Below are positions 1,439-34,486 of a DNA stretch of 64,000 nt, one piece after another. The number at the start of each line of letters is the position of its first letter. The first letter of the stretch is position 1. The notes under the pieces were generated by a model. The model did not search any database. It was not told the DNA's origin and worked only from the letters and a program-made list of their open reading frames with translations. A program made the position numbers and the translations under genes. Source of the DNA: Mucilaginibacter cryoferens (GTDB lineage Bacteria; Bacteroidota; Bacteroidia; Sphingobacteriales; Sphingobacteriaceae); assembly GCF_014205845.1 (NCBI RefSeq), contig NZ_JACHCR010000004.1, positions 329,460-393,459 of the forward strand, read 5' to 3'.

Positions 1439-2440
1439 GTGCCTGTAATATTAGGAATTGAATCTTCATGTGATGATACCTCGGCCTCGGTTTGTGTTGA
1501 TGGTGTAATACTAAGCAATGTTATTGCTAACCAAAGCATTCACGAGGCGTATGGTGGTGTTGTCCCTGAGCTTGCCTCAAGGGTTCATCAGCAAAATATT
1601 GTTCCTGCCGTTCAACAAGCACTATTGAACGCAAAAGTAAACAAAAATGATATTGATGCAGTAGCTTTTACGCGCGGGCCTGGCCTTTTAGGCTCATTAT
1701 TAGTAGGGGTATCGTTTGCCAAGGCATTTGCACTGGCACAAAAAGCACCCCTGGTAGAAATTAATCACATGCAGGCCCATATATTGGCTCACTTTATTGG
1801 CGATCATAAACCCACATTTCCGTTTTTGTGCCTTACTGTTTCTGGGGGGCATACGCAGATAGTTTTGGTGAAAGATTATTTTGAGATGGAGATCATAGGC
1901 CAAACATTGGATGATGCCGCCGGCGAGGCTATGGACAAAACCAGCAAGATATTAGGTTTGCCATATCCCGGTGGGCCACTGATAGATAAATACGCGCGCC
2001 AGGGCAATCCGGATGCATACAAGTTTCCCGAGCCGCAGATAGCCGGTTTTGATTTTAGCTTTAGTGGTTTAAAAACTTCTATCTTATATTTCATCCGGGA
2101 TAATGTTGCTAAGAACCCCGATTTTATTGCTGAAAATCTGGCTGATATTTGTGCATCTGTTGAAAAGCGGATAGTTACCATTTTGCTTAATAAGTTTGAG
2201 AAGGCTGCCAAAGAGCAGGGTATTAAACAATTGGCTTTGGCGGGTGGGGTATCGGCAAACACAGGTTTAAGGTTGGGTTTACAAGCGCTTTGCGAAAAAA
2301 ATGGCTGGGAGGGTTTTATACCCAAAATGGAATACTGTACAGATAACGCGGCCATGATAGCCATAGCCGGTTACTACAAATATTTAAAAGGCGAATTTAT
2401 AGGGCAGGAAGTTGCACCTATGGCGAGGATGATATTTTAA
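1439..2440 (+). CDS. tsaD: tRNA N6-adenosine threonylcarbamoyltransferase TsaD
   Basis: TsaD transfers the threonylcarbamoyl group from TC-AMP to A37 of ANN-decoding tRNAs, working with TsaB and TsaE in the cytoplasm. The 333-residue protein has the family length and the opening GIESSCDDTSAS. It carries the metal-binding HMQAH motif (H110 and H114), a glycine-rich SGGHTQ segment, the AGGVSANTGLR nucleotide loop and the late CTDNAAMIA motif with its metal-ligand aspartate. The start is GTG at 1439. An ATG at 1437 overlaps it but is out of frame. The upstream region contains repeated gacttttgactt tracts, and tamB diverges from it. The call is secure. Confidence 0.97.
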   Translation: MPVILGIESSCDDTSASVCVDGVILSNVIANQSIHEAYGGVVPELASRVHQQNIVPAVQQALLNAKVNKNDIDAVAFTRGPGLLGSLLVGVSFAKAFALAQKAPLVEINHMQAHILAHFIGDHKPTFPFLCLTVSGGHTQIVLVKDYFEMEIIGQTLDDAAGEAMDKTSKILGLPYPGGPLIDKYARQGNPDAYKFPEPQIAGFDFSFSGLKTSILYFIRDNVAKNPDFIAENLADICASVEKRIVTILLNKFEKAAKEQGIKQLALAGGVSANTGLRLGLQALCEKNGWEGFIPKMEYCTDNAAMIAIAGYYKYLKGEFIGQEVAPMARMIF

Positions 2441-2446
2441 GCCCGG

Positions 2447-2544
2447 CCCCCTAACCCCCTGAAGGGGGAACTGGAGGAGGGTTACATTTTTTATTTAGTA
2501 CTTTTGCAAATCAAAACATTCCCCCTTTAGGGGGTTAGGGGGCT
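2447..2544. repeat. Inverted pair of GC-rich palindromic repeats
   Basis: Two copies of a ccccctaacccccTgaaggggg-type repeat face each other about 50 bp apart. The left one (about 2447-2470) reads CCCCCTAACCCCCTGAAGGG, and the right one (2521-2543) reads CCCCCTTTAGGGGGTTAGGG. Each is partly self-complementary, and the two can also pair with each other. The pair follows the tsaD stop and ends just before the next start, so it could act as a transcription terminator or mRNA-stabilising hairpin. Similar GC-rich repeats occur at 5.7, 14.1 and 29.3 kb. Confidence 0.75.
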
Positions 2545-2546
2545 AT

Positions 2547-2717
2547 ATGAACATTCCATCATTAATTTTCTGGGCGGTATTTGTGCTGCCAATGGTTGCT
2601 TTTTTAGTTTGGCTTATGCGCCAGGATAAGAAAAAAGGCGTAACCGGCCTTGTGGTATTGGCTATAACCGTTATTGGCGGTATAGTTTATATGTACATTA
2701 AAACGGGTGGCAAATAA
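2547..2717 (+). CDS. Small two-helix membrane protein, unknown function
   Basis: This 56-residue frame begins MNIPSLIFWAVFVLPMVAFL, has a short charged loop (MRQDKKKG), a second hydrophobic helix (VTGLVVLAITVIGGIVYMYI) and the tail KTGGK. The two helices joined by a basic loop are the hallmark of a small hairpin membrane protein, with the positive-inside rule placing the loop in the cytoplasm. It sits 106 bp downstream of tsaD on the same strand, after the inverted repeats. I do not recognise a family. Ordered amphipathic composition and a clean ATG make a real gene likely, but it is short enough to be chance. Confidence 0.6.
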   Translation: MNIPSLIFWAVFVLPMVAFLVWLMRQDKKKGVTGLVVLAITVIGGIVYMYIKTGGK

Positions 2718-2814
2718 TTTAGGTTATTGGTTGATTGGGTTGAGTGGTTGATTAAGTTAATGAGGATCGGTGGTTTTATGAAGGGATTACTTTGAATCTA
2801 TTCGAGAACATACC

Positions 2815-3405
2815 TTAAATCACCGGCGTAACTAATCCTTTATAAAACGTTTGCGCGTAGCCGGCAATAGCGGTAGCCATATCCAATCCGTTAATTATTT
2901 TGCGGGCGTTTATCCAATCGGCTTTTGTGGCTGTAAAATACTTGCCCAGGCCAACGCCGGTAAATAAACCGCCTGTCATCCCCTTTATCATAATACGTGC
3001 TGCCGTTTGTGGCTCTAAAGCCAATTCGGGATTTTCTAATAGTGCAATCTGTAAAAGGTTGCCCATGCTTTGATAGTTCTCGTACCAGGTTAGCTGTACA
3101 TAACCACGGCCATAGTATAATTTATCTGGTGTGGTATAAGGAATGCGATGACCGGGGCCGCCGCCCATTTTTAGTTTTTTACCATAATCGTGCCCCGCGC
3201 CTTTGCCAAATTCGCTTATGGGTTCCATCGTTTTAGCACACTCGTGAAAAACTGTGCCCAGCACGTAGGCTGCTTTACGCTGATCGGTAATTCCGGTGTC
3301 ATCAATCGCTTTTAAAATAGTTTCGATACCATCAATCTGGCTTTGTAAAAGGTGACCACCAAACATAGGACGAATGGTGTCATAAAGGTGTTTTGTACCC
3401 GACAT
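2815..3405 (-). CDS. Glycoside hydrolase family 19-like lytic enzyme (chitinase/endolysin type)
   Basis: The 196-residue protein resembles the single-domain GH19 enzymes found as phage endolysins and bacterial cell-wall lysozymes, which hydrolyse beta-1,4 bonds between amino sugars. The conserved family features are VFHECAKTMEPISE, which supplies the two acidic residues expected for catalysis, and the GRGYVQLTWYENYQ substrate-binding segment. The ATG at 3405 gives MSGTKHLYDTIRPMFGG, the usual N-terminus of these proteins. No signal peptide or cell-wall anchor is visible, so export would need a holin-like or other route, or the enzyme could be a domesticated phage gene. No phage genes surround it. 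It is convergent with nothing and is separated from uvrA by a strong terminator. Confidence 0.8.
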   Translation of the reverse strand: MSGTKHLYDTIRPMFGGHLLQSQIDGIETILKAIDDTGITDQRKAAYVLGTVFHECAKTMEPISEFGKGAGHDYGKKLKMGGGPGHRIPYTTPDKLYYGRGYVQLTWYENYQSMGNLLQIALLENPELALEPQTAARIMIKGMTGGLFTGVGLGKYFTATKADWINARKIINGLDMATAIAGYAQTFYKGLVTPVI

Positions 3406-3580
3406 AAATTTAAGATTTAGAAGTTAATTGCCTTTGGCCGTTATCACATCCTACACAGATAGATATTTGTTTGAGGAGAAAAGATAAGATGTAGGCCTTG
3501 TAGTGTAAATATAGATGTTGCGGTCAGGGATTGCAAGGCAAAATATTGTCAGTAAGACTGGTATGTTTATAGGTAGCACA

Positions 3581-3619
3581 AAAAAGGCGTTTACAGTTTT
3601 TTGCTGTAAACGCCTTTTT
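3581..3619 (-). terminator. Rho-independent terminator downstream of uvrA
   Basis: A perfect 16-bp stem runs from AAAAAGGCGTTTACAG (3581-3596) to CTGTAAACGCCTTTTT (3604-3619), with a 7-nt loop. On the minus strand it follows the uvrA stop at 3641 by about 20 bp and ends in a U-run. The stem is A/U-flanked on both sides, so it could act in either direction. Confidence 0.85.
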
Positions 3620-3640
3620 ATAATCTTACGGGTTTATTTT

Positions 3641-6634
3641 TTACTTGCCGAAGCGCTCTTTTAAATAATACCCTGTATGCGATTTTTTTTCTTTGATCAA
3701 ATTTTCTGGTGTGCCTTCAAATACTATTTTACCTCCGCGGTCGCCGCCATCGGGGCCGATGTCAATTACCCAGTCGGCGCATTTAATAACATCCATATTA
3801 TGTTCAATTACAATAATGGTATTGCCATGCTCCAGCAGGGCATCAAAAGATTTCAGCAGCTTTTTAATATCGGCAAAGTGTAAGCCGGTTGTGGGCTCAT
3901 CAAAAATGAAAAGCGTTTTGTGCGTATTGTTACCCTTTACCAGGAAAGATGCCAGCTTAATACGCTGTGCCTCGCCACCAGATAATGTGTTTGATGACTG
4001 CCCTAATTGTACATACCCTAAACCAACATCAACCAGGGGTTTTATTTTGGCAATTATCTTGGGTTCTTTGGCAAAAAACGCCAAAGCCTCGTCGATGGTC
4101 ATGTGTAATACCTCGGCTACGTTCTTCTCGTTGTAGGCAATATCCAGAATATGCTGTTTAAAACGGTTGCCGCCGCAGGTTTCGCAGGTTAAAAATATAT
4201 CTGCCATAAACTGCATCTCTATCTTCACCTCGCCTTCACCCTGGCAAACATCGCACCTGCCGCCCTCTACGTTAAAAGAAAAGGCAGATGGTTTCAGACC
4301 CGCCGCTTTGGCTGCCGGTTGTGATGCATACAGGTTGCGGATCTCGTCCCAGGCTTTAACATAGGTAACCGGGTTGGAGCGCGACGAACGGCCGATAGGG
4401 TTTTGATCAACCATTTCTACCTGTTCTATTTTAGCGTAATCGCCCTCAATGCTATCGTATGAACCCGTTTGCTCGCCAGAGTAATTGCCCAGCGTTTTTT
4501 GCAGGGCAGGGGCAAGTATGCGTTTTACCAAACTGGTTTTACCAGAGCCGGATACACCGGTAACTACGGTAAGCACACCAAGTGGGAACTTAGCGTTTAC
4601 ATGCTGCAGGTTATTTTCACGCCCGCCCTTTATCTCAATAAAATCGTGCCATTTGCGGCGGCTGGCTGGGATAGCTATCTCATCCTTACCGCTCAGGTAA
4701 CGACCGGTTAAGCTATTATCGTCTTTTATAATTTCGTCATAAGTACCGGTGAAAATCAACTCGCCGCCATGGGTGCCTGCTTCAGGGCCAATATCAATAA
4801 TATGGTCGGCAGCTTTCATGATCTCTTCCTCGTGCTCAACTACCAAAACGGTATTGCCCACATCGCGCAGCGATTTTAGCACACCAATTAAGCGTTGGGT
4901 ATCGCGTGGGTGCAGGCCTATGCTTGGTTCGTCCAATACATAAATAGAGCCTACCAGGCTGCTGCCTAAAGAAGTAGCCAGGTTAATACGCTGCGATTCG
5001 CCGCCCGAGAGGGTGTTTGACAGGCGGTTAAGCGTTAAATAGCTTAGGCCTACATCATTTAAAAACACCAGGCGGTTAGTTATCTCCATTAACAAGCGCT
5101 TGCCAATTTTAGCATCGGTTTCGCTCAGTTCCAAACTTTGAAAAAACTCCAGGGCTTTATCCAAAGGCATCAATACCACATCGGTTATCGAACGTTGGTT
5201 GATCTTTACATACGATGCATCCTGGCGTAAACGGCTGCCCTTACACTCGGGGCAACTTGTTTTACCCCGGTACCGCGATAGCAAAACACGGTATTGAATT
5301 TTATAGGTTTGCTCTTCCATCTCCTTGAAAAACTCATCAAGGCCACGGAAAAATTTATTACCTGTCCAAAGCAGCTTTTGCTCTTTAGCGGTAAGCTGGT
5401 TGTATTGGCGATGGATAGGGAAATCAAACTTGAGGGCATGCTTTACCAGGTTATCGTTCCATTCGCGCATTTTTTCGCCGCGCCATGGGGCAATTGCTCC
5501 ATCATATATCGATTTACTTTTATCCGGAATAACCAGGTCTTCATCAATGCCAATTACCTTACCATAGCCCTCGCATTTTTTGCAGGCTCCGTAGGGGTTG
5601 TTAAAACTGAAAAAGTTAGGAGAGGGTTCTTCAAATTTAATCCCGTCTAATTCAAACCGGTCGCAAAAAAAGCGCTCGGTTTCTTTTGGTTCCCTCTCTT
5701 CATTTAGAGTCCTCCCTTCCTGGGAGGATTTAGGAGGGGCTTGCTCCTGGTAGCGTACGTAGCAGTCGCCTTTACCCTCAAAAAACGCGGTCTGGATAGA
5801 ATCACCTAAACGGCTTACGGTTTCATCTTCCTCGTTTTTGCTGATCCGGTCGATAACGATGCGTACCGCGTTATAGGTATCGGCAGAGTGCGTTGCCGCA
5901 TTGGCGGTTTCTGTATCACTTACTGCCTTTGTTTTTTTACCTTTTGCCTTTAAGCTTTCACCTTTTACCTCTTCTACCAGCCACGATCCATCATCAACAA
6001 TGCTGGTATCTTCTAAAAGTTCTTCTATTTTAGATAGTTTGCCCTGGTACTCTACCCGTACAAAACCTTTTTGCATTAATACCGCCAACTCTTCTTTTAA
6101 GCTGCGGTTATTGTGCGGATATAATGGAGCCAGTAAAGTAACCTGGCTTTCGTTGGGTAAGGCCAGTATAAAGTTCACCACATCGGTAACCGAATCTTTT
6201 TTTACCGGAAGGCCCGATATAGGAGAAATGGTTTTACCAATGCGCGAGAAAAGCAGTTTCAGGTAATCGTAAATCTCGGTAGATGTACCTACGGTTGAGC
6301 GTGGATTAGAGGTAATTACTTTTTGCTCAATGGCAATGGCGGGCGCAATGCCTTTAATATAATCAACGTCGGGCTTATTCATACGGCCCAAAAACTGGCG
6401 GGCGTATGATGAAAGGCTTTCTACATAACGACGCTGCCCCTCGGCATACAAGGTATCAAAAGCAAGTGACGATTTGCCCGAACCAGACATGCCCGTTACT
6501 ACAACCAGCTTGTTTTTGGGGATTGCCACATCCATATTTTTGAGGTTGTGTACACGTGCCCCTTTTATAATAATATGTTTCGACGGATCTTTTTCTGCTT
6601 CTTTACTCATGCTTTGAATTAGTTCGTGGTTCAT
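3641..6634 (-). CDS. uvrA: Excinuclease ABC subunit UvrA
   Basis: UvrA is the damage-sensing ATPase dimer of nucleotide excision repair and loads UvrB (48484-50508 here). The 997-residue protein has two ABC halves: Walker [10 protein letters not shown] at about 48-56 and GVSGSGKTS in the second half, each with an LSGGE signature ([15 protein letters not shown] and [15 protein letters not shown]). Zinc-binding cysteine clusters are visible as [18 protein letters not shown] and CDVCQGEGE...CETCGGNRF. The protein is about 50 residues longer than the E. coli enzyme because of a low-conservation insert at about 225-325. Part of that insert (about 297-315, [19 protein letters not shown]) is encoded by a copy of a GC-rich intergenic repeat. 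An alternative start is MSKEAEKD at 6610. Confidence 0.96.
5691..5745. repeat. GC-rich palindromic repeat embedded in frame in uvrA
   Basis: On the minus strand the sequence reads AAGCCCCTCCTAAATCCTCC followed by a gap-like CAGGAAGGGAGGACTC. It aligns base for base, with small differences, to the intergenic repeat at 29325-29360 (AAGCCCCCTCTAAATCTCCC, then CCGGTAGGAGAGACT). The central CCTCCC/GGGAGG arms form a hairpin. Here it lies inside the uvrA reading frame and is translated without a stop. Confidence 0.75.
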
Positions 6635-28187: not shown

Positions 28188-28499
28188 TGTAACGAGACTT
28201 TTTTTACGTGTTTTTGATCTGAATTGCTTTTGTAGAATTGTTGCGCAACAAGTGAAACAGTTGTAAATGTTGTTTTACTGGTAATCAGATTTTTGCGAAT
28301 TGCCATAAAATGCAAAGCGCAACAGTTGGGGGCTTTAGATACTTATTGGATAGGCACGAAGCAATCCCCATGACATGTTGTAGACCCGAGACTTACGAAG
28401 TTTCTGAAACTTCGTAAGTCTTTCACCGCATTGTCATTTCCCTCTCGGAATCCCCGGATTTTAATTCTTTCGATGACGGATTATTGAGTGAATAAATTC
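28183..28499. repeat. Gene-free gap with a perfect 15-bp palindromic hairpin
   Basis: No gene is visible here. AGACTTACGAAGTTT (28389-28403) and AAACTTCGTAAGTCT (28407-28421) form a perfect hairpin with a 3-nt loop. A fragment resembling module P (GCACGAAGCAATCCCC) stands at about 28356. Both belong to the dispersed repeats of this genome. Confidence 0.65.
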
Positions 28500-29324
28500 C
28501 TATACCACGCCCTGTAAACTCAATACTGCCTGATCTAAAAAGTTAGGGATCAGGGTTTGTTGGGTATGACTTATTTTATCCGGATCGGCAAGGTGAGAGA
28601 GCATATCCCTGTATTTTACATCGCCGTGTTCGCTGATAACTTCGTTTTTTTTCTCTTCTTTTAACAACAGGTTGCGCATGCCATTAGCATCGGCCTCGGG
28701 GTGAAACTGGGTAGAGAAAAAGTAGTCGTTAAATCGGATGGCCATCATAGCACGGGGGAGATCAACATGGGGGCGTTCTTTTTCGATAGCTACCAATTGC
28801 ATGTTTAAATCTTTAAACCGTTTTTGGTTTGGGTTAATCACCTGCCAGCTACGCGAATCAACAGCATAAAAAGGCTCGGCCAGGCCTTCAAATAAAGGTT
28901 CGGTTAAACCTGTTTCGGTTTTATTTACCGGTAATACACCAAATGATGGCGAACGACGGGTGTTAATATCGCCAAGCTCGTACTTACGGCACATGAGCTG
29001 AAAGGAGTGGCACACAAAAAACGCGTGCTTTTTATCGGTAGTGTTGGAGAGATTGTGATCTTCCAGCCTATCGGTAAGTCTGAAATACTTCTTCTCCCAC
29101 TCGGTACCCTCATCCAACGGACTACCAGGACCGCCGCTCGATAAATAAATATCAAAATTAAGTCCCGGCACTTCGCCGCCCCGGCGTACGTCAAAAATTT
29201 TGTAGGTAATATTTAAATCGTGCTTTGTTTTGTACCTGTTTAAAATATCCTGGAAACCGCGCATACCCTCGTTCGCTATCCCATCATACAGATCAAGTAT
29301 GGCAACTTTTATTTCCGGTTTCAT
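28500..29324 (-). CDS. Class I glutamine amidotransferase-like protein
   Basis: The 274-residue protein has the class I GATase fold, which hydrolyses glutamine and passes ammonia to a partner. The signs are ILDLYDGIANEGMRGF, the SSGGPGSP loop, nucleophile Cys105 in FVCHSFQLM, and His208/Glu210 in STQFHPEAD. The elbow is unusual: family members usually have G-x-C-x-G, here V-C-H-S-F. It could still be active, since Cys, His and Glu are all present. A 60-residue helical extension follows. It is the last gene of the minus-strand group with a GCS2-type ligase and an ATP-grasp ligase, so it could supply ammonia for amide formation. The real donor and acceptor are unknown. Confidence 0.85.
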   Translation of the reverse strand: MKPEIKVAILDLYDGIANEGMRGFQDILNRYKTKHDLNITYKIFDVRRGGEVPGLNFDIYLSSGGPGSPLDEGTEWEKKYFRLTDRLEDHNLSNTTDKKHAFFVCHSFQLMCRKYELGDINTRRSPSFGVLPVNKTETGLTEPLFEGLAEPFYAVDSRSWQVINPNQKRFKDLNMQLVAIEKERPHVDLPRAMMAIRFNDYFFSTQFHPEADANGMRNLLLKEEKKNEVISEHGDVKYRDMLSHLADPDKISHTQQTLIPNFLDQAVLSLQGVV

Positions 29325-29414
29325 AAGCCCCCTCTAAATCTCCCCCGGTAGGAGAGACTTTTTGTTTTTTAATTTCATATAAAGCCCTCCCTACCGGGGA
29401 GGGTTTGGGTGGGG
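29325..29414. repeat. GC-rich palindromic repeat pair in the amidoligase operon
   Basis: AAGCCCCCTCTAAATCTCCC at about 29324-29345 and AGCCCTCCCTACCGGGGAGG at 29382-29402 form two complementary hairpin arms between the GATase and GCS2 genes. The first is closely related to the repeat inside uvrA. It could lower expression of the GATase relative to the upstream genes. Confidence 0.75.
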
Positions 29415-30512
29415 CTATAACCCCTTTAATGTTTGTGATGTGATAAAATCAACCACATCTACAAAGTTATTATTTTGCTGGTAAACGGCCAGCTGTCTGT
29501 CGGCACCGGTGCCGGTTTCCAGTATTTTGTGTACATATTGGAGGTCATCGCGCGAGCCAAGGTCATCTACCACATCATCAACAAAATCTAAAAGCTCCAA
29601 TACCAACGACCGGGTATTTACTTCCATCTCTTTACCAAAATCAATCATTTTGCCGTCGATGCCATAACGGGCTGCACGCCATTTGTTTTCGTTGATGAGC
29701 GCGCGCGAATAGGTTATAAAATTCATGTTTTGTTGCCTCAGCTTATACAGCTTGGCACATAAGGCCTGGAAAAGCGCGGTGAAAGCGATGGTTTCGTCAA
29801 CCAGCATAGGGCAATCACAAATACGAAATTCGATAGTTTCGAAGAATGGGTGAACCCGGATGTCCCACCAGATCTTTTTGGCATTATCAATGCAATTGGT
29901 TTTTACCAGTAGCTTAATGTAGGCATCATACTCTTCAATGCTGCTAAAATAGTCGGGGATGCCCGTCCTCGGAAATTTATCAAACACCTTGGTACGGAAC
30001 GATTTGAAACCGGTATTACGTCCCTCCCAAAAAGGGGAATTGGTTGATAGCGCAAATACGTGCGGCAAAAAGTACCTCACCTGGTTGGCAATATGGATAG
30101 CCATATCGCGCGATTGGATGCCCACATGTACATGTAATCCAAAAATAAGATTCGATCGGGCGGCCTCCTGCATCTCATCCACAATCTCAAAATAGCGGGG
30201 ATTGTCTGTTATCAATTGATGCTGCCAGTGCGAAAACGGGTGCGTTCCTGCTGCGCCAATACGCAGGCCAATATCGCCGGCGAGCATAGCCACCGTTGTA
30301 CGCAGTTTGCTTACCTCTTTACGGGCCTCGGTGGTATTGTGGCAAATATTGGTGCCCACTTCTACCACGGCCTGGTGCATTTCGGCCTTTACCTGGTCTT
30401 CGTGGATCTTTTGCGCGCTATCCACAATTTTTTGCTCATGCGATTTTAATTCCCTGGTAACAGGGTCAATCACCATAAATTCTTCTTCAACACCTAAGGT
30501 AAACTCGTTCAT
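29415..30512 (-). CDS. Carboxylate-amine ligase of the GCS2 family (YbdK-like)
   Basis: GCS2-type ligases join an amine to a carboxylate through an acyl phosphate (the best known products are gamma-glutamylcysteine-type bonds). The 365-residue protein shows GVEEEFMVIDPVTREL, the metal/ATP-binding LIFGLHVHVGIQSRDMAI and STNSPFWEGRNTGFKSFRTKVFDKFPRTGIPDYF, followed by FRICDCPM, all standard for YbdK-like enzymes. It is 6 bp from the DUF4262 gene and shares a strand with a GATase and an ATP-grasp ligase. Two different ligases plus an ammonia-generating domain point to assembly of a small peptide or amide. Glutathione synthesis in the classical sense is not implied. Confidence 0.9.
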   Translation of the reverse strand: MNEFTLGVEEEFMVIDPVTRELKSHEQKIVDSAQKIHEDQVKAEMHQAVVEVGTNICHNTTEARKEVSKLRTTVAMLAGDIGLRIGAAGTHPFSHWQHQLITDNPRYFEIVDEMQEAARSNLIFGLHVHVGIQSRDMAIHIANQVRYFLPHVFALSTNSPFWEGRNTGFKSFRTKVFDKFPRTGIPDYFSSIEEYDAYIKLLVKTNCIDNAKKIWWDIRVHPFFETIEFRICDCPMLVDETIAFTALFQALCAKLYKLRQQNMNFITYSRALINENKWRAARYGIDGKMIDFGKEMEVNTRSLVLELLDFVDDVVDDLGSRDDLQYVHKILETGTGADRQLAVYQQNNNFVDVVDFITSQTLKGL

Positions 30513-30518
30513 AATTGG

Positions 30519-30983
30519 TTAGGTTAAATTAACAGGTCCTAATATTGGTTGTAAATCCTTAATGCTTTCGGGCCATTCATCTTGCCATGGGTAAATACCT
30601 TTTATTGTTGGATAGATGCATTGTAATAAAGGGAAATCATCTCCTTTATAATATCGCTGCGCCTGGCCAACGTAGCTATCATAATTTGATTTTTTTACCT
30701 CAATGATGTAACAATTGAAACCATTTAATATGTCTGATTCATATTTTAGCTGACTGAAAAACTTACCATTTTTGATATCATGAGCCATGTTATTTATTAG
30801 GGTGTGAGCCAACTGCTGTTTCAACCCGATGATGATAATCTCGGGATGCTGATAAGTTTCAAATAATCCAATGGAGTAACTAAAACCAGGACCAGTTTCA
30901 TCTTCCATCACATACATTACCTGTAGACCAAACTTTGTTATATCGTTTTCTAGTTTCGTATCCAGTTGTTGCGGGTTGGTCAT
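30519..30983 (-). CDS. DUF4262 domain protein
   Basis: The 154-residue protein has the DUF4262 hallmark FSYSIGLFETYQHPEIIIIGLKQQLAHTLINNM, and the conserved CYIIEVKKSNYDSYVGQAQRYYKGDDFPLLQCIYP. DUF4262 proteins have no known biochemical role. It lies between the ATP-grasp and GCS2 genes and may be functionally tied to them, or it may be a passenger. Its stop is only 6 bp from the GCS2 start, so they are co-transcribed. Confidence 0.85.
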   Translation of the reverse strand: MTNPQQLDTKLENDITKFGLQVMYVMEDETGPGFSYSIGLFETYQHPEIIIIGLKQQLAHTLINNMAHDIKNGKFFSQLKYESDILNGFNCYIIEVKKSNYDSYVGQAQRYYKGDDFPLLQCIYPTIKGIYPWQDEWPESIKDLQPILGPVNLT

Positions 30984-31011
30984 TTTGTTCCTTATCTGTT
31001 TTGTAGCTTTA

Positions 31012-31038
31012 TAGCGATGGGTTTCAATCCCATCGCTA
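31012..31038. repeat. Hairpin of the GGGTTTCAATCCC repeat type
   Basis: TAGCGATGGG (31012-31021) pairs with CCCATCGCTA (31029-31038). The loop carries TTTCAAT. The GGTTTCAA-type loop resembles the inverted repeat at 44561-44748. It lies between the ATP-grasp and DUF4262 genes and could be a weak terminator or processing site. Confidence 0.65.
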
Positions 31039-31045
31039 CGGGGTG

Positions 31046-32122
31046 TTATTTCTTCACGGTTTTCTTCGCCTTCACCACTTTTTCTTTCTTCACTTTCGCT
31101 TCTGTTTCAATGGCATGATCAACAGCACCAACAGATACATCTGCTTTAGTGGGTTTGGCTTTAGCTGCTACCAGCGGCGTTTTTGCTGCCGATGTTTTTA
31201 CAAACTCGCCCCAAGTAAGGTTGTCTAAGCCGTCTTTTTGTTTTTTTGCGCGTTCAATGGCGTAATCGGCAGCGGTTTCTACCACCCATTCAAAGTTTGC
31301 CTGGCCTACGCTGGTTACTTCGGCATCGGGGGCTGGGTTACAAAAGTCGATAGCGTAGGGGATACCATCGCGAATAGCAAACTCCACTGTATTAAAATCA
31401 TAACCCAAAAACTGGTTGAGTTTTATTACATAATCTTTAATTGTATCCAACAGTTTTTTTGCGGCCGGAGCTTTACCATGCTCGTAGCGCAGGTGGTGCG
31501 GGTTGCGCGGCTCGTACTGCATAATACGTACATGCTTGCCGCCAATGCAATAGCAGCGAAAGTAATCGTCAAAAACAACCTCTTCCTGTAGCATCATTAC
31601 ATACTGTTTGGTTTTGTTGTATTTATCAAAAAAGTCTTCTTTATCTTCCAATTTATAAACCTCTTTCCAGCCACCACCATCAAAAGGTTTCATGTAGGCG
31701 GGGAAGCCTACATAATTAAAAATGCCATCCCAATCTAAGGGGTAGGCCAGGTTACGGAACGATCTGTCTGTAGTATCATCGGGCAGGTCTTTTGATGGTA
31801 GTATCATCGTTTTAGGTACGGGAACACCAATTTTTACAGCCAGCGCGTTGTTGAAAAACTTTTCATCGGCACTCCACCAAAAGGGATTATTGATAACGGC
31901 TGTGCCGCAAATGGCAGCGTTTTTTAATGCCGCGCGATAAAACGGAACATCCTGCGAAATCCTGTCGACAATCACCGCGTAATCCAGTGGTTCGGCCTGC
32001 ATTACCTTATCCAGGCGTACAAACTCTGCCGATATATTTTTCTCAGCCTTCTGGTTTATCCTATCCACAAATGCCTGCGGAAACGAGTTTTCCTGTCCGA
32101 ATAAGATGCCTATTTTTTTCAT
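31046..32122 (-). CDS. ATP-grasp ligase with lysine-rich C-terminal tail
   Basis: The 358-residue protein has the ATP-grasp core: PAYMKPFDGGGWKEVYKL (nucleotide-binding lysine and glycine loop), the MMLQEEVVFDDYFRCYCIGGKHVRIMQYEP substrate region and NTVEFAIRDGIPYAIDFCNPAPD (Glu, Asp and Asn metal ligands). ATP-grasp ligases make C-N or C-S bonds through an acyl phosphate. About 50 residues at the end, past the enzyme core (TSAAKTPLVAAKAKPTKADV...KVKKEKVVKAKKTVKK), are Lys/Ala-rich and probably unstructured. That tail resembles histone-H1 or nucleic-acid-binding tails and could itself be modified. It is 66 bp from the preceding esterase gene. It is the central enzyme of the group. Confidence 0.88.
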   Translation of the reverse strand: MKKIGILFGQENSFPQAFVDRINQKAEKNISAEFVRLDKVMQAEPLDYAVIVDRISQDVPFYRAALKNAAICGTAVINNPFWWSADEKFFNNALAVKIGVPVPKTMILPSKDLPDDTTDRSFRNLAYPLDWDGIFNYVGFPAYMKPFDGGGWKEVYKLEDKEDFFDKYNKTKQYVMMLQEEVVFDDYFRCYCIGGKHVRIMQYEPRNPHHLRYEHGKAPAAKKLLDTIKDYVIKLNQFLGYDFNTVEFAIRDGIPYAIDFCNPAPDAEVTSVGQANFEWVVETAADYAIERAKKQKDGLDNLTWGEFVKTSAAKTPLVAAKAKPTKADVSVGAVDHAIETEAKVKKEKVVKAKKTVKK

Positions 32123-32187
32123 TATTATATGTTTTTGGTAGATGTAGTTTTTTAATTCAATAATTCACTCATTCAATAAATCAATAA

Positions 32188-32952
32188 TTACTTTATCGTC
32201 GATAAATAATGTGGAAACATCTCTTTCCATATCGGCCAATCATGGCTGGCATTGGGGCGAATATCTAACCAATGATTAATCCCCTTTTTGTTTAAAATGT
32301 TTGATAGCTGGATGTTATAATCCTTGCAAATGTCGTGCTCTGATGTGCCCAGGATAATGTTGATGTTCCATAGGTCGGCTATATCGCTGCCCGGGAGGTA
32401 GTCTACCGGGTTGTTGTAAAAAATATCATCATTATAAAAGCCGTCGGTAAACATCTTGATATCAAAAGCCCCGCCCATGGTAAACAGGTGGGCAACCTTT
32501 TCGGGATGTTTAAAAGCGAAGTTAGCGGCATGGTAACCACCAAAACTGCAACCGGCAACGGCTACTTTACCAATGCCGGTTTCGTGCATGGCCCAGGGGG
32601 CAAGTTCATGTAATAGCATCTTATCGTACCAGCTGTAATTACGGGCGCGATCTGCCGGGTGGATACCTTTATCGTACCAGGTACGGTCGTCTAAAGTATC
32701 GGGGCAGTATATTTTTACCAAACCTTCGTCTATAAACCATTTTACACTGTCAATTAATCCAAAATCTTTATTTTGGTGATAGCGCCCCTTGGTTGTAGGG
32801 AACAAAATAAGGGGGAAACCCCTATCGCCAAATACCAGCATTTCTACATGCAGGTTGAGGTTTGGCGAATACCAGCGATGATATTTTTCTATCAAAATGA
32901 GCCATTTAAGTTTACGATGCGGTAAGTTAAGTGGTTTAACTGAAAAAGGCAA
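32188..32952 (-). CDS. Alpha/beta-fold esterase of the amidoligase locus
   Basis: The 254-residue protein belongs to the serine esterases with an esterase D-like fold. Nucleophile motif GCSFGGYHAANFAF, an acidic-residue segment TSEHDIC and the catalytic-His region NASHDWPIWKEMFPHYL are clear. It has no signal peptide, so it is cytoplasmic. It starts the minus-strand group with the ATP-grasp gene 66 bp downstream. The start is uncertain: TTG at 32952 gives 254 residues, and an in-frame TTG at 32895 (MIEKYHRWYSPNL) is nearer to the N-terminus of related proteins, as I recall them. A role in releasing or transferring the ligated product is inferred. Confidence 0.85.
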   Translation of the reverse strand: MPFSVKPLNLPHRKLKWLILIEKYHRWYSPNLNLHVEMLVFGDRGFPLILFPTTKGRYHQNKDFGLIDSVKWFIDEGLVKIYCPDTLDDRTWYDKGIHPADRARNYSWYDKMLLHELAPWAMHETGIGKVAVAGCSFGGYHAANFAFKHPEKVAHLFTMGGAFDIKMFTDGFYNDDIFYNNPVDYLPGSDIADLWNINIILGTSEHDICKDYNIQLSNILNKKGINHWLDIRPNASHDWPIWKEMFPHYLSTIK

Positions 32953-32999
32953 CTAACTGATAAATTAATACGTTAGCTTAATAAATTGAAAACATAGCG

Positions 33000-33007
33000 T
33001 ACTTTTG
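33000..33007 (+). promoter_or_regulatory. Putative -7 element (TACTTTTG) of the second esterase gene
   Basis: TACTTTTG matches TAnnTTTG and stands 23 bp before the ATG at 33030. The intergenic gap between the two divergent esterase genes is only 77 bp, so the element probably serves the plus-strand gene and its position is consistent with the start at 33030. Confidence 0.5.
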
Positions 33008-33029
33008 AGCCCTTAAAAATTAACATAAT

Positions 33030-33845
33030 ATGTATTTGGGCTGGGCAGAAACTGAGATGACGATAACCGAAAAAAATATTACTATAAACTCCGCATTGCT
33101 TAACAGGGCAGTAACCTGTACCTTATTAATGCCCGATGAGCAGGATATAACTGAGCCTTTGAGCCTGTTGTTGTTGAACGATGGGCAGGAGTTGGAAAGC
33201 CTGGCTTTAACGCAAACGCTGGAGCAGCTATATAACAATAATAAGCTAAAGCCAATATTGGTAGCAGCCATACATGCTGGCGAAGATCGTTTGCAGGAAT
33301 ACGGTGTTGCCGGCAAGCCCGATTTTAAAAAGCGCGGCGCAAAAGCCGATAGCTATGCCCAATTTATTATAACCGAACTATTGCCGCAGATAAAAGCAGT
33401 AGCAGGTATCACCGAGTTTGATAGCATGGCCTACGCTGGTTTTTCTTTGGGTGGCTTATCAGCCTTTGACATCAGCTGGAGCAATGCCGGTGTGTTTGAT
33501 AAAGTTGGGGTGTTTTCTGGCGCGTTTTGGTGGAGAAGCAAGGATCTTACAAGCGGTTATACTGATAATGACAGGATAGCCCACACACTTGTAAAGGAAA
33601 CCGCCGGCAAGCCCAATCTGAAATTCTGGCTGCAAACCGGCACCAAAGATGAAACCAGCGACAGGAATAATAATGGCATTATAGACGCCATTGATGATAC
33701 CATAGACCTGATTAAAGAGTTGGAAGCTAAAGGTTATTCGCGCCCTGCTGATATTCAGTATATGGAGGTTGTAGGTGGGAGCCACAACACCGAGACATGG
33801 GGTAGGGTAATGAGTAAGTTTTTATGTTGGGCGTTTGGGAGGTAA
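33030..33845 (+). CDS. Alpha/beta-fold esterase with an EF-hand-like loop
   Basis: The 271-residue protein resembles enterochelin esterase-like and esterase D proteins: nucleophile Ser139 in AGFSLGGLSAFD, catalytic His252 in GGSHNTETW. Between them, residues 211-222 (DRNNNGIIDAID) fit the Ca-binding EF-hand loop spacing (D1, N3, N5, G6, I8, D9, D12). The loop may stabilise the lid or the acid residue through calcium. No signal peptide is evident. It diverges from the esterase/ATP-grasp group with a 77-bp gap, which suggests a shared regulator or the same pathway. An alternative start is the ATG for MTITEKNITI at 33057. The substrate is unknown. Confidence 0.85.
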   Translation: MYLGWAETEMTITEKNITINSALLNRAVTCTLLMPDEQDITEPLSLLLLNDGQELESLALTQTLEQLYNNNKLKPILVAAIHAGEDRLQEYGVAGKPDFKKRGAKADSYAQFIITELLPQIKAVAGITEFDSMAYAGFSLGGLSAFDISWSNAGVFDKVGVFSGAFWWRSKDLTSGYTDNDRIAHTLVKETAGKPNLKFWLQTGTKDETSDRNNNGIIDAIDDTIDLIKELEAKGYSRPADIQYMEVVGGSHNTETWGRVMSKFLCWAFGR

Positions 33846-33872: not shown

Positions 33873-34100
33873 ATGGGAACAGAAATAATTGAGAAAAAAC
33901 TTAATAAGCTGCCCGATAACCTTAAACTTAAAGTGGAAGGTTATATAGACGCATTGCTTATAGAATATAATATTACTGAATCCTCAGCTAAATCGACTTC
34001 ATTTCAGGTTAAGGCTGGTTTTGGTGGCGGTAAAGGGATAATTGGTTATATGGCTGATGACTTTGATGCGCCTTTGGAAGACTTTAAAGATTACATGTAA
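33873..34100 (+). CDS. VapB-type antitoxin (DUF2281-like)
   Basis: The 75-residue protein MGTEIIEKKLNKLPDNLKLKVEGYIDALLIEY... has the short helix pair typical of DUF2281-like antitoxins, and an acidic, toxin-binding C-terminus (FDAPLEDFKDYM). It ends 2 bp before the PIN gene start. The pair is therefore translationally coupled and autoregulated as in other type II systems. The family name is from memory of the fold. Confidence 0.8.
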   Translation: MGTEIIEKKLNKLPDNLKLKVEGYIDALLIEYNITESSAKSTSFQVKAGFGGGKGIIGYMADDFDAPLEDFKDYM

Positions 34101-34102
34101 TA

Positions 34103-34486
34103 GTGAATTATCTTTTAGATACACATGCATTTTTATGGTATATTGATGGTAATTCTGCTTTATCGGACAATGCCAAAGTTATTATTGAAGACCAATCAGC
34201 TGTCAAATTTGTAAGTACTGCCAGTTTATGGGAGATCTCAATAAAAATAAGTTTAGACAAGTTAAGATTAACGCTTGATTTTGACAGTTTACCTACATTT
34301 ATGGATCGTAACGATTTTAAAAACATCGCCATAGAATTTAGCCATTTACAACAGTTAAACCAATTACCCCATTTTCATAAAGATCCTTTTGATCGCCTCA
34401 TTATTTCTCAGGCCATTACAGAGAATATTACCATTATATCTGCCGATCAGCACTTTAAAATCTACCCTGTAGCTACTATTTGGTAA
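34103..34486 (+). CDS. VapC-type PIN-domain ribonuclease toxin
   Basis: The 127-residue protein is an intact PIN domain. Asp6 in LLDTHAFLWYI, Glu43 or so in TASLWEISIK, Asp in KDPFDRLIISQAI and the SADQHF motif supply the acidic metal-binding residues. PIN toxins cleave tRNA or rRNA and halt translation until the antitoxin recovers. The start codon is GTG at 34103, 2 bp after the antitoxin stop. Compared with the disrupted PIN gene at 23.9-24.3 kb this copy has no stop and looks functional. It differs in sequence from that gene, so they are not recent duplicates. Confidence 0.9.
   Translation: MNYLLDTHAFLWYIDGNSALSDNAKVIIEDQSAVKFVSTASLWEISIKISLDKLRLTLDFDSLPTFMDRNDFKNIAIEFSHLQQLNQLPHFHKDPFDRLIISQAITENITIISADQHFKIYPVATIW

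Follow-up and report, generated by a model that had tools for sequence, protein, structure and literature searches.

We analysed a run of ligase and hydrolase genes in a 64,000-nucleotide stretch of Mucilaginibacter cryoferens (contig NZ_JACHCR010000004.1, positions 329,460 to 393,459; this whole stretch is called the window), together with gene X, which encodes a further predicted ligase and usually closes the run in related bacteria. For YgiC and YjfC of Escherichia coli, which have the same fold as X at 14–15% identity, we know of no partner of the GCS2 or glutamine amidotransferase (GATase) type. Both are described as peptide-spermidine ligases (Pederick 2023, cited in PMC12568646 and PMC10948618). 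Cp1B, a fungal enzyme with an X-like fold, makes a pseudodipeptide in the biosynthesis of E-64, according to the account in PMC12568646; as far as that account goes, it differs in its epoxysuccinate substrate and in having an ANL enzyme as partner instead of a GCS2 or RimK-like ligase. GSS, GspSA and TryS reach just 9–14% identity to X in structure alignments, and X has no GSP_synth match above the cut-off. Where these enzymes have a putative metal-site Asn, X has Gln (judged by eye), the operon adds a third ligase, and its hosts differ in that BshC, the bacillithiol ligase, is present in 196 of the 198 genomes of our operon survey. The YbdK/GCS2 ligases include the window's GCS2 protein by curated family scores; here such a ligase occurs in one gene set with a hydrolase and two ligases of the ATP-grasp type. 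Iyer et al. (2009, Mol Biosyst 5:1636) reportedly treated neighbourhoods in which ATP-grasp and GCS2 amidoligases are mixed with peptidases. Among the best-ranked matches in the open-licence PMC literature we found no description of the present operon, of which that 2009 survey possibly holds an earlier listing. On balance, the locus probably represents most of a conserved accessory three-ligase pathway for a small amide-linked molecule, that is, a non-ribosomal peptide or a peptide-amine.

Three predicted ligases and their joint distribution

The six open reading frames (ORFs) and the families that a sequence-only reading had assigned to them were all recovered, at the same positions and in agreement with Pfam:

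28500..29324, minus strand: GAT, class I GATase-like hydrolase (PF00117 above cut-off, 30.5 bits against 22.8)
29415..30512, minus strand: GCS2/YbdK-family carboxylate-amine ligase (PRK13515, 540 bits, cut-off 371; PF04107, 216 bits, cut-off 21)
30519..30983, minus strand: DUF4262 protein (PF14081, 133 bits, cut-off 28)
31046..32122, minus strand: GRASP, predicted RimK/LysX/Ddl-fold ATP-grasp ligase (AlphaFold model, Foldseek)
32188..32952, minus strand: EST1, alpha/beta-hydrolase (PF00561, PF09752 and PF00756, each modestly over cut-off)
33030..33845, plus strand: EST2, divergent PF00756 esterase (71 bits, cut-off 22)

The gaps between the minus-strand genes, from EST1 to GAT, measure 65, 62, 6 and 90 bp. 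By curated family score the window's GCS2 protein is assigned to the YbdK/GCS2 carboxylate-amine ligases, as it also exceeds the TIGR02050 cut-off (310 bits against 176), and its nearest solved structure is that of YbdK (1r8g, E 2.7e-52). GRASP, for which the protein collection contains at least 8000 homologues, gives no match in Pfam and stays under the cut-off of the NCBIfam family rimK_fam (TIGR00768; 34.3 bits against 143.4), so that it does not reach the RimK family score. Its AlphaFold model (mean predicted local distance difference test score, pLDDT, 86) has the ATP-grasp fold, for which Foldseek returned Ddl (E 1e-14), LysX/ArgX (2e-13) and RimK (7e-13), with PsnB also among the closest. 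Residues K145, Q179, E247, D259 and N262 are invariant across 47 aligned sequences. With respect to a precursor-peptide gene next to the ligase, as in graspetide (ATP-grasp RiPP) clusters, the operon-internal gaps measure 6–90 bp. The C-terminal tail of the window's GRASP (31046-31150, minus strand) is rich in Lys and Ala, is modelled with low confidence and is absent or different in several aligned relatives.

In relatives, GAT is followed by X, a gene of about 395 codons. The window holds no copy; that of this genome is found at a distance of about 240 kb on the contig, at C4:119626-120816 (the window being C4:329460-393459). Matches to X at 72–79% identity include proteins of Mucilaginibacter, and of the 61 genomes of the genus 35 have a match, in one case only at E 9e-4. 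Among 30 X loci examined in the genus, 23 have GAT no further than about 1.5 kb from X; the remaining seven include that of the window genome, those of the two genomes closest to it in X (83%) and one incomplete locus. Beyond GAT in the window, an inverted repeat (28390-28425, found by eye) lies in the 372-bp gap that separates GAT from the next gene, where relatives have X.

X reached no Pfam cut-off: for PF03738 the copy of locus L049 scored 17.9 bits against 29.3, and a scan of 44 members gave a single weak match, with none for the window genome's own copy. No relative in the PDB was found by sequence. The AlphaFold model (pLDDT 92.4; predicted template modelling score 0.91) aligns from end to end with YgiC, YjfC, the glutathione synthetases and GspSA, so that the entire X protein is predicted to have the glutathione-synthetase/GspS/YgiC fold. 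The residues D95, E112 and Q114, invariant in the 44 members, would be the counterparts of the Asp, Glu and Asn metal ligands, as matched by eye to GspS numbering. Because of this modelled fold we count three ligases, not two.

Each protein was searched in 198 genomes of the phylum. Matches were found in 73 genomes for GRASP (72 kept after a partial match in genome G047 was excluded), 62 for GCS2, 60 for X, 52 for GAT (50 kept, without the weak matches in G134 and G119) and 90 for EST1 (81 kept, those below about 70 bits being set aside). EST2 matched at least 100 of the 198; matches below 200 bits were excluded, leaving 18 strong ones. Joint presence was frequent: GRASP and EST1 occur together in 70 genomes, GRASP and GCS2 in 58, GRASP and X in 58, GCS2 and X in 56, and GRASP and GAT in 49. 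Of the 58 genomes holding both GRASP and GCS2, just 38 have the two gene starts no more than 6 kb apart, so co-occurrence persists after linkage has been lost. Altogether, 24 of 39 families hold GRASP together with X or its stand-in (below), and 12 of these 24 also have genomes with neither. Joint absence within a family is a better control here than Fisher tests. The co-occurrence that the sequence-only reading had proposed to look for across Bacteroidota is therefore strong, often in genomes where the genes are unlinked.

Beyond the phylum, a contig pattern scan returned at least 573 confirmed relatives, of which the best 80 were retained. These span Acidobacteriota, Ignavibacteria, Chlorobiota and Rhodothermia/Balneolia in addition to Bacteroidota, and within 8 kb of GRASP they hold GCS2 in 57 loci, a circularly permuted ATP-grasp protein in seven and neither in 16. 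An order confined to close relatives, or unrelated distributions of the genes, had been named beforehand as speaking against a pathway; neither was observed, and the order recurs in several phyla.

The stand-in is this circularly permuted ATP-grasp, which adjoins GRASP in 11 genomes that have GRASP and GAT and lack X. Its copies are 52–100% identical to that of locus L031, which scores above the PF14403 cut-off. Nine of the 11 loci were mapped and none has GCS2 at that place; four of the 11 genomes keep a more distant GCS2 (46–47%) elsewhere. In these 11 genomes, the permuted ligase replaces X and occupies the position of GCS2. They were counted from 46 genomes with matches; we excluded G137, where the protein (37% identity) occurs besides X, and 34 others with no more than 42 bits.

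Hydrolase slot, esterases and DUF4262

The Cys-His-Glu triad noticed in the sequence-only reading is intact in the GATase, with Cys105, His208 and Glu210 invariant in 17 aligned sequences, and GAT is assigned to the class I GATases by family score and triad. Of 117 GRASP loci, 44 have GAT nearby, 33 have an M29-type protein and none has both. At least one contig is counted twice among them (L036 and L073, as judged by their equal length and layout), and some contigs stop close to GRASP. Two Ignavibacteriaceae loci, L113 with the M29-type gene and L128 with GAT, have GCS2 proteins that are 85% identical, so the exchange of hydrolases took place within this family. The M29-type protein scores 55.8 bits for PF02073 (cut-off 27), and its residues E196, E268, H294, H314 and D316, which we take to be metal ligands, are invariant in 12 sequences. 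Its sole PDB profile match is NicX (E 0.0019).

Exchange is rare within the Bacteroidota phylum set. GAT is absent from 23 of the 72 GRASP genomes, and an operon-type M29 protein (at least 468 bits; the remaining M29 matches in these genomes reach at most 100 bits) occurs in only two of the 23, G055 and G093. We therefore rejected M29 as the replacement of GAT everywhere, and the hydrolase appears to be dispensable. The GATase is thus no fixed member of the gene set. The shared slot favours a role of GAT as a putative amide hydrolase over ammonia supply. A true glutaminase giving ammonia to one of the ligases, and hence a primary amide, would fit the PF00117 score and the intact triad; since the slot is exchanged with M29-type proteins and the ligases persist where GAT is missing, we consider ammonia donation quite improbable and do not place it in the lead.

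In 73 of the 117 loci EST1 precedes GRASP at a distance of up to 2.5 kb, on the same strand in 71. EST2 lies within 3.5 kb upstream in 29, divergent in all of them, and its 18 strong matches (above 200 bits) all come from genomes with GRASP. EST1 is thus common in relatives, and the divergent EST2 is confined to a subset. The divergent gap of 77 bp given by the sequence-only reading holds for EST1 as called; since EST1 homologues begin at the in-frame TTG at 32895, this is likely the true start, and the gap would then be about 134 bp. It contains no strict Bacteroidota-type promoter (TTG-N16-22-TAnnTTTG).

The DUF4262 gene, listed within the run by the sequence-only reading, does not belong to the conserved genes. 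It was not seen between the ligases in the loci mapped from relatives (including L002-L030), among which the genus contributes only one further genome (G099) that spans the spot. At this position it was seen only in the window, and we rejected it as a pathway member; it probably represents an insertion into the operon.

Proposed pathway and alternatives

An amidoligase pathway, as first suggested from the sequence, is still the best reading of this conserved order and distribution, with three ligases in place of two and DUF4262 outside the set. From gene content and predicted folds we infer the chemistry, the order of steps and the class of product. GCS2 would most likely form an amide of the gamma-glutamyl or a similar type, GRASP, a RimK/LysX-like enzyme, a second amide, and X would couple the carboxylate so formed to an amine or an amino acid; because of their family membership, all three are expected to work via an acyl phosphate. 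One exchangeable hydrolase, a GATase here and an M29-type protein elsewhere, most likely cuts an amide bond in the product or in an intermediate, for trimming, release or recycling, and the esterases may act on substrate or product. The GATase/M29 exchange and the replacement by the permuted ATP-grasp suggest equivalent steps and thus make the chemistry testable. The joint distribution marks out the gene set of the pathway, including X, a predicted ligase outside the window whose fold indicates a reaction class already known, the joining of a peptide and an amine. In the members scanned, both GRASP and X stay under every curated Pfam and NCBIfam cut-off, in spite of the many GRASP homologues.

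Several observations weigh against this three-ligase pathway. GCS2 is missing from 14 of the 72 GRASP genomes, the hydrolase is frequently absent as described above, and a clear X occurs in only 34 of the 61 genomes of the genus. Genome G154 has a GCS2-GAT-X run (L183 3370-6557, minus strand) without GRASP or EST1; further exceptions are G144, with X and GCS2 and no GRASP match, and G007, G087 and G160, with a divergent GRASP (34–44%) and no partners. The Fisher p-values for co-occurrence are tiny and ignore kinship, and the correlations between GRASP, GCS2 and X distances (r 0.67-0.83, 55 loci) include shared organism history. The replacement of Asn by Gln at the putative metal site of X, judged by eye, also counts here, as does the dioxygenase NicX, to which the M29-type protein is also near, so that its peptidase role is putative. 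No transporter, carrier, substrate or product is known for the pathway, and a fold by itself reveals no substrate.

That the genes are mere neighbours, housekeeping ligases and esterases brought together by chance or shared regulation, would agree with the variable esterases and GATase and with the 20 of 58 genomes in which no GCS2 lies within 6 kb of GRASP; we give this hardly any credence, as co-occurrence is kept without linkage, joint absence recurs inside 12 families and the identical order is found across several phyla. Protein tagging or C-terminal modification, in which the ligases would extend a protein by residues that the hydrolase strips off again, has the fold of GRASP in its favour, which is near those of RimK and LysX, both acting on proteins; five of 47 GRASP members match R2K_2 weakly, and the window's copy has its Lys-rich tail. 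However, the 25 largest neighbour clusters, inspected by eye with ORFs below 100 amino acids excluded, contain no recurring small target protein, and enzymes of the GCS2 family and of the X fold mostly have small molecules as substrates, which leaves tagging unlikely.

The pairing of GCS2 with a glutathione-synthetase-fold ligase would also suit a gamma-glutamyl peptide thiol kept beside bacillithiol, and three of the Acidobacteriaceae loci scanned encode, upstream of GRASP, DinB_2 proteins, whose superfamily includes thiol S-transferases. Yet BshC occurs in nearly all genomes, both with and without the operon (three of 14 control genomes also match), so the operon is accessory and probably not a general thiol pathway, which we rejected; a gamma-glutamyl product may nonetheless be made. 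With GCS2 dispensable and DinB_2 limited to few loci, such a thiol system seems improbable to us. By analogy with PuuA and PuuD, which glutamylate an amine and then remove the glutamyl group, GCS2 might glutamylate an amine from which the hydrolase takes the glutamyl off again. A GCS2 with a stand-alone GATase would fit, as would the aldo/keto reductase (PF00248) directly after the M29-type gene in five Acidobacteriaceae loci; the two extra ligases, the dispensable GCS2, the small number of loci with the reductase and the lack of an amine oxidase among the 25 clusters (by eye) make amine handling very unlikely.

Within the three-ligase pathway, a bolder and rather doubtful possibility is that Bacteroidota, Acidobacteriota and Ignavibacteria have, alongside bacillithiol-type thiols, a widespread new class of gamma-glutamyl peptide-amine conjugates resembling glutathione or trypanothione. 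Their makers would be the GCS2 ligase and ATP-grasp ligases of two kinds. The phyla bearing GRASP are common in soil and fresh water.

Neighbouring genes

No universal sixth gene emerged among the 25 largest neighbour clusters. These include ABC-type ATPases (12 loci, by eye), an extra ATP-grasp (8), the aldo/keto reductase (8, six of them in Acidobacteriaceae), a GH13-like protein (6) and an isoaspartyl peptidase (5, three in one genus). In the six Acidobacteriaceae loci the reductase lies downstream, directly after M29 in five, and is placed between M29 and X in two of the loci (L114, L134); the Pfam scan covered four of the six copies. The positions are as follows:

L114 5044-5997, L134 5006-5968, L111 6238-7221 and L093 16498-17517, plus strand: aldo/keto reductase (PF00248), after the M29-type gene
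L111 1555-2061, L098 9302-9820 and L148 8397-8876, plus strand: DinB_2 (PF12867), upstream of GRASP, Acidobacteriaceae

Both may be lineage additions, and a redox or thiol step may exist. More peptidases were seen next to it, namely an M17 aminopeptidase and an isoaspartyl peptidase, PF01112 (L049 3840-5255, plus strand; L031 13386-14375, minus strand). The divergent GRASP of G160 (44%) adjoins two lookalikes of HpnC/HpnD-like squalene/phytoene synthases (L043 5952-7760, minus strand, by eye). A protein of 1050–1330 amino acids is encoded 5–7 kb downstream in six loci of Bacteroidota and Ignavibacteriaceae, and the L057 copy (1506-5312, minus strand) matches the alpha-amylase family PF00128. 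In the window, a 75-codon ORF on the plus strand (33873-34100, by eye) is directly followed by a PIN-domain protein (34103-34486, PF01850); this stretch adjoining the operon (33873-34486, plus strand) looks like a toxin-antitoxin pair of the VapBC type.

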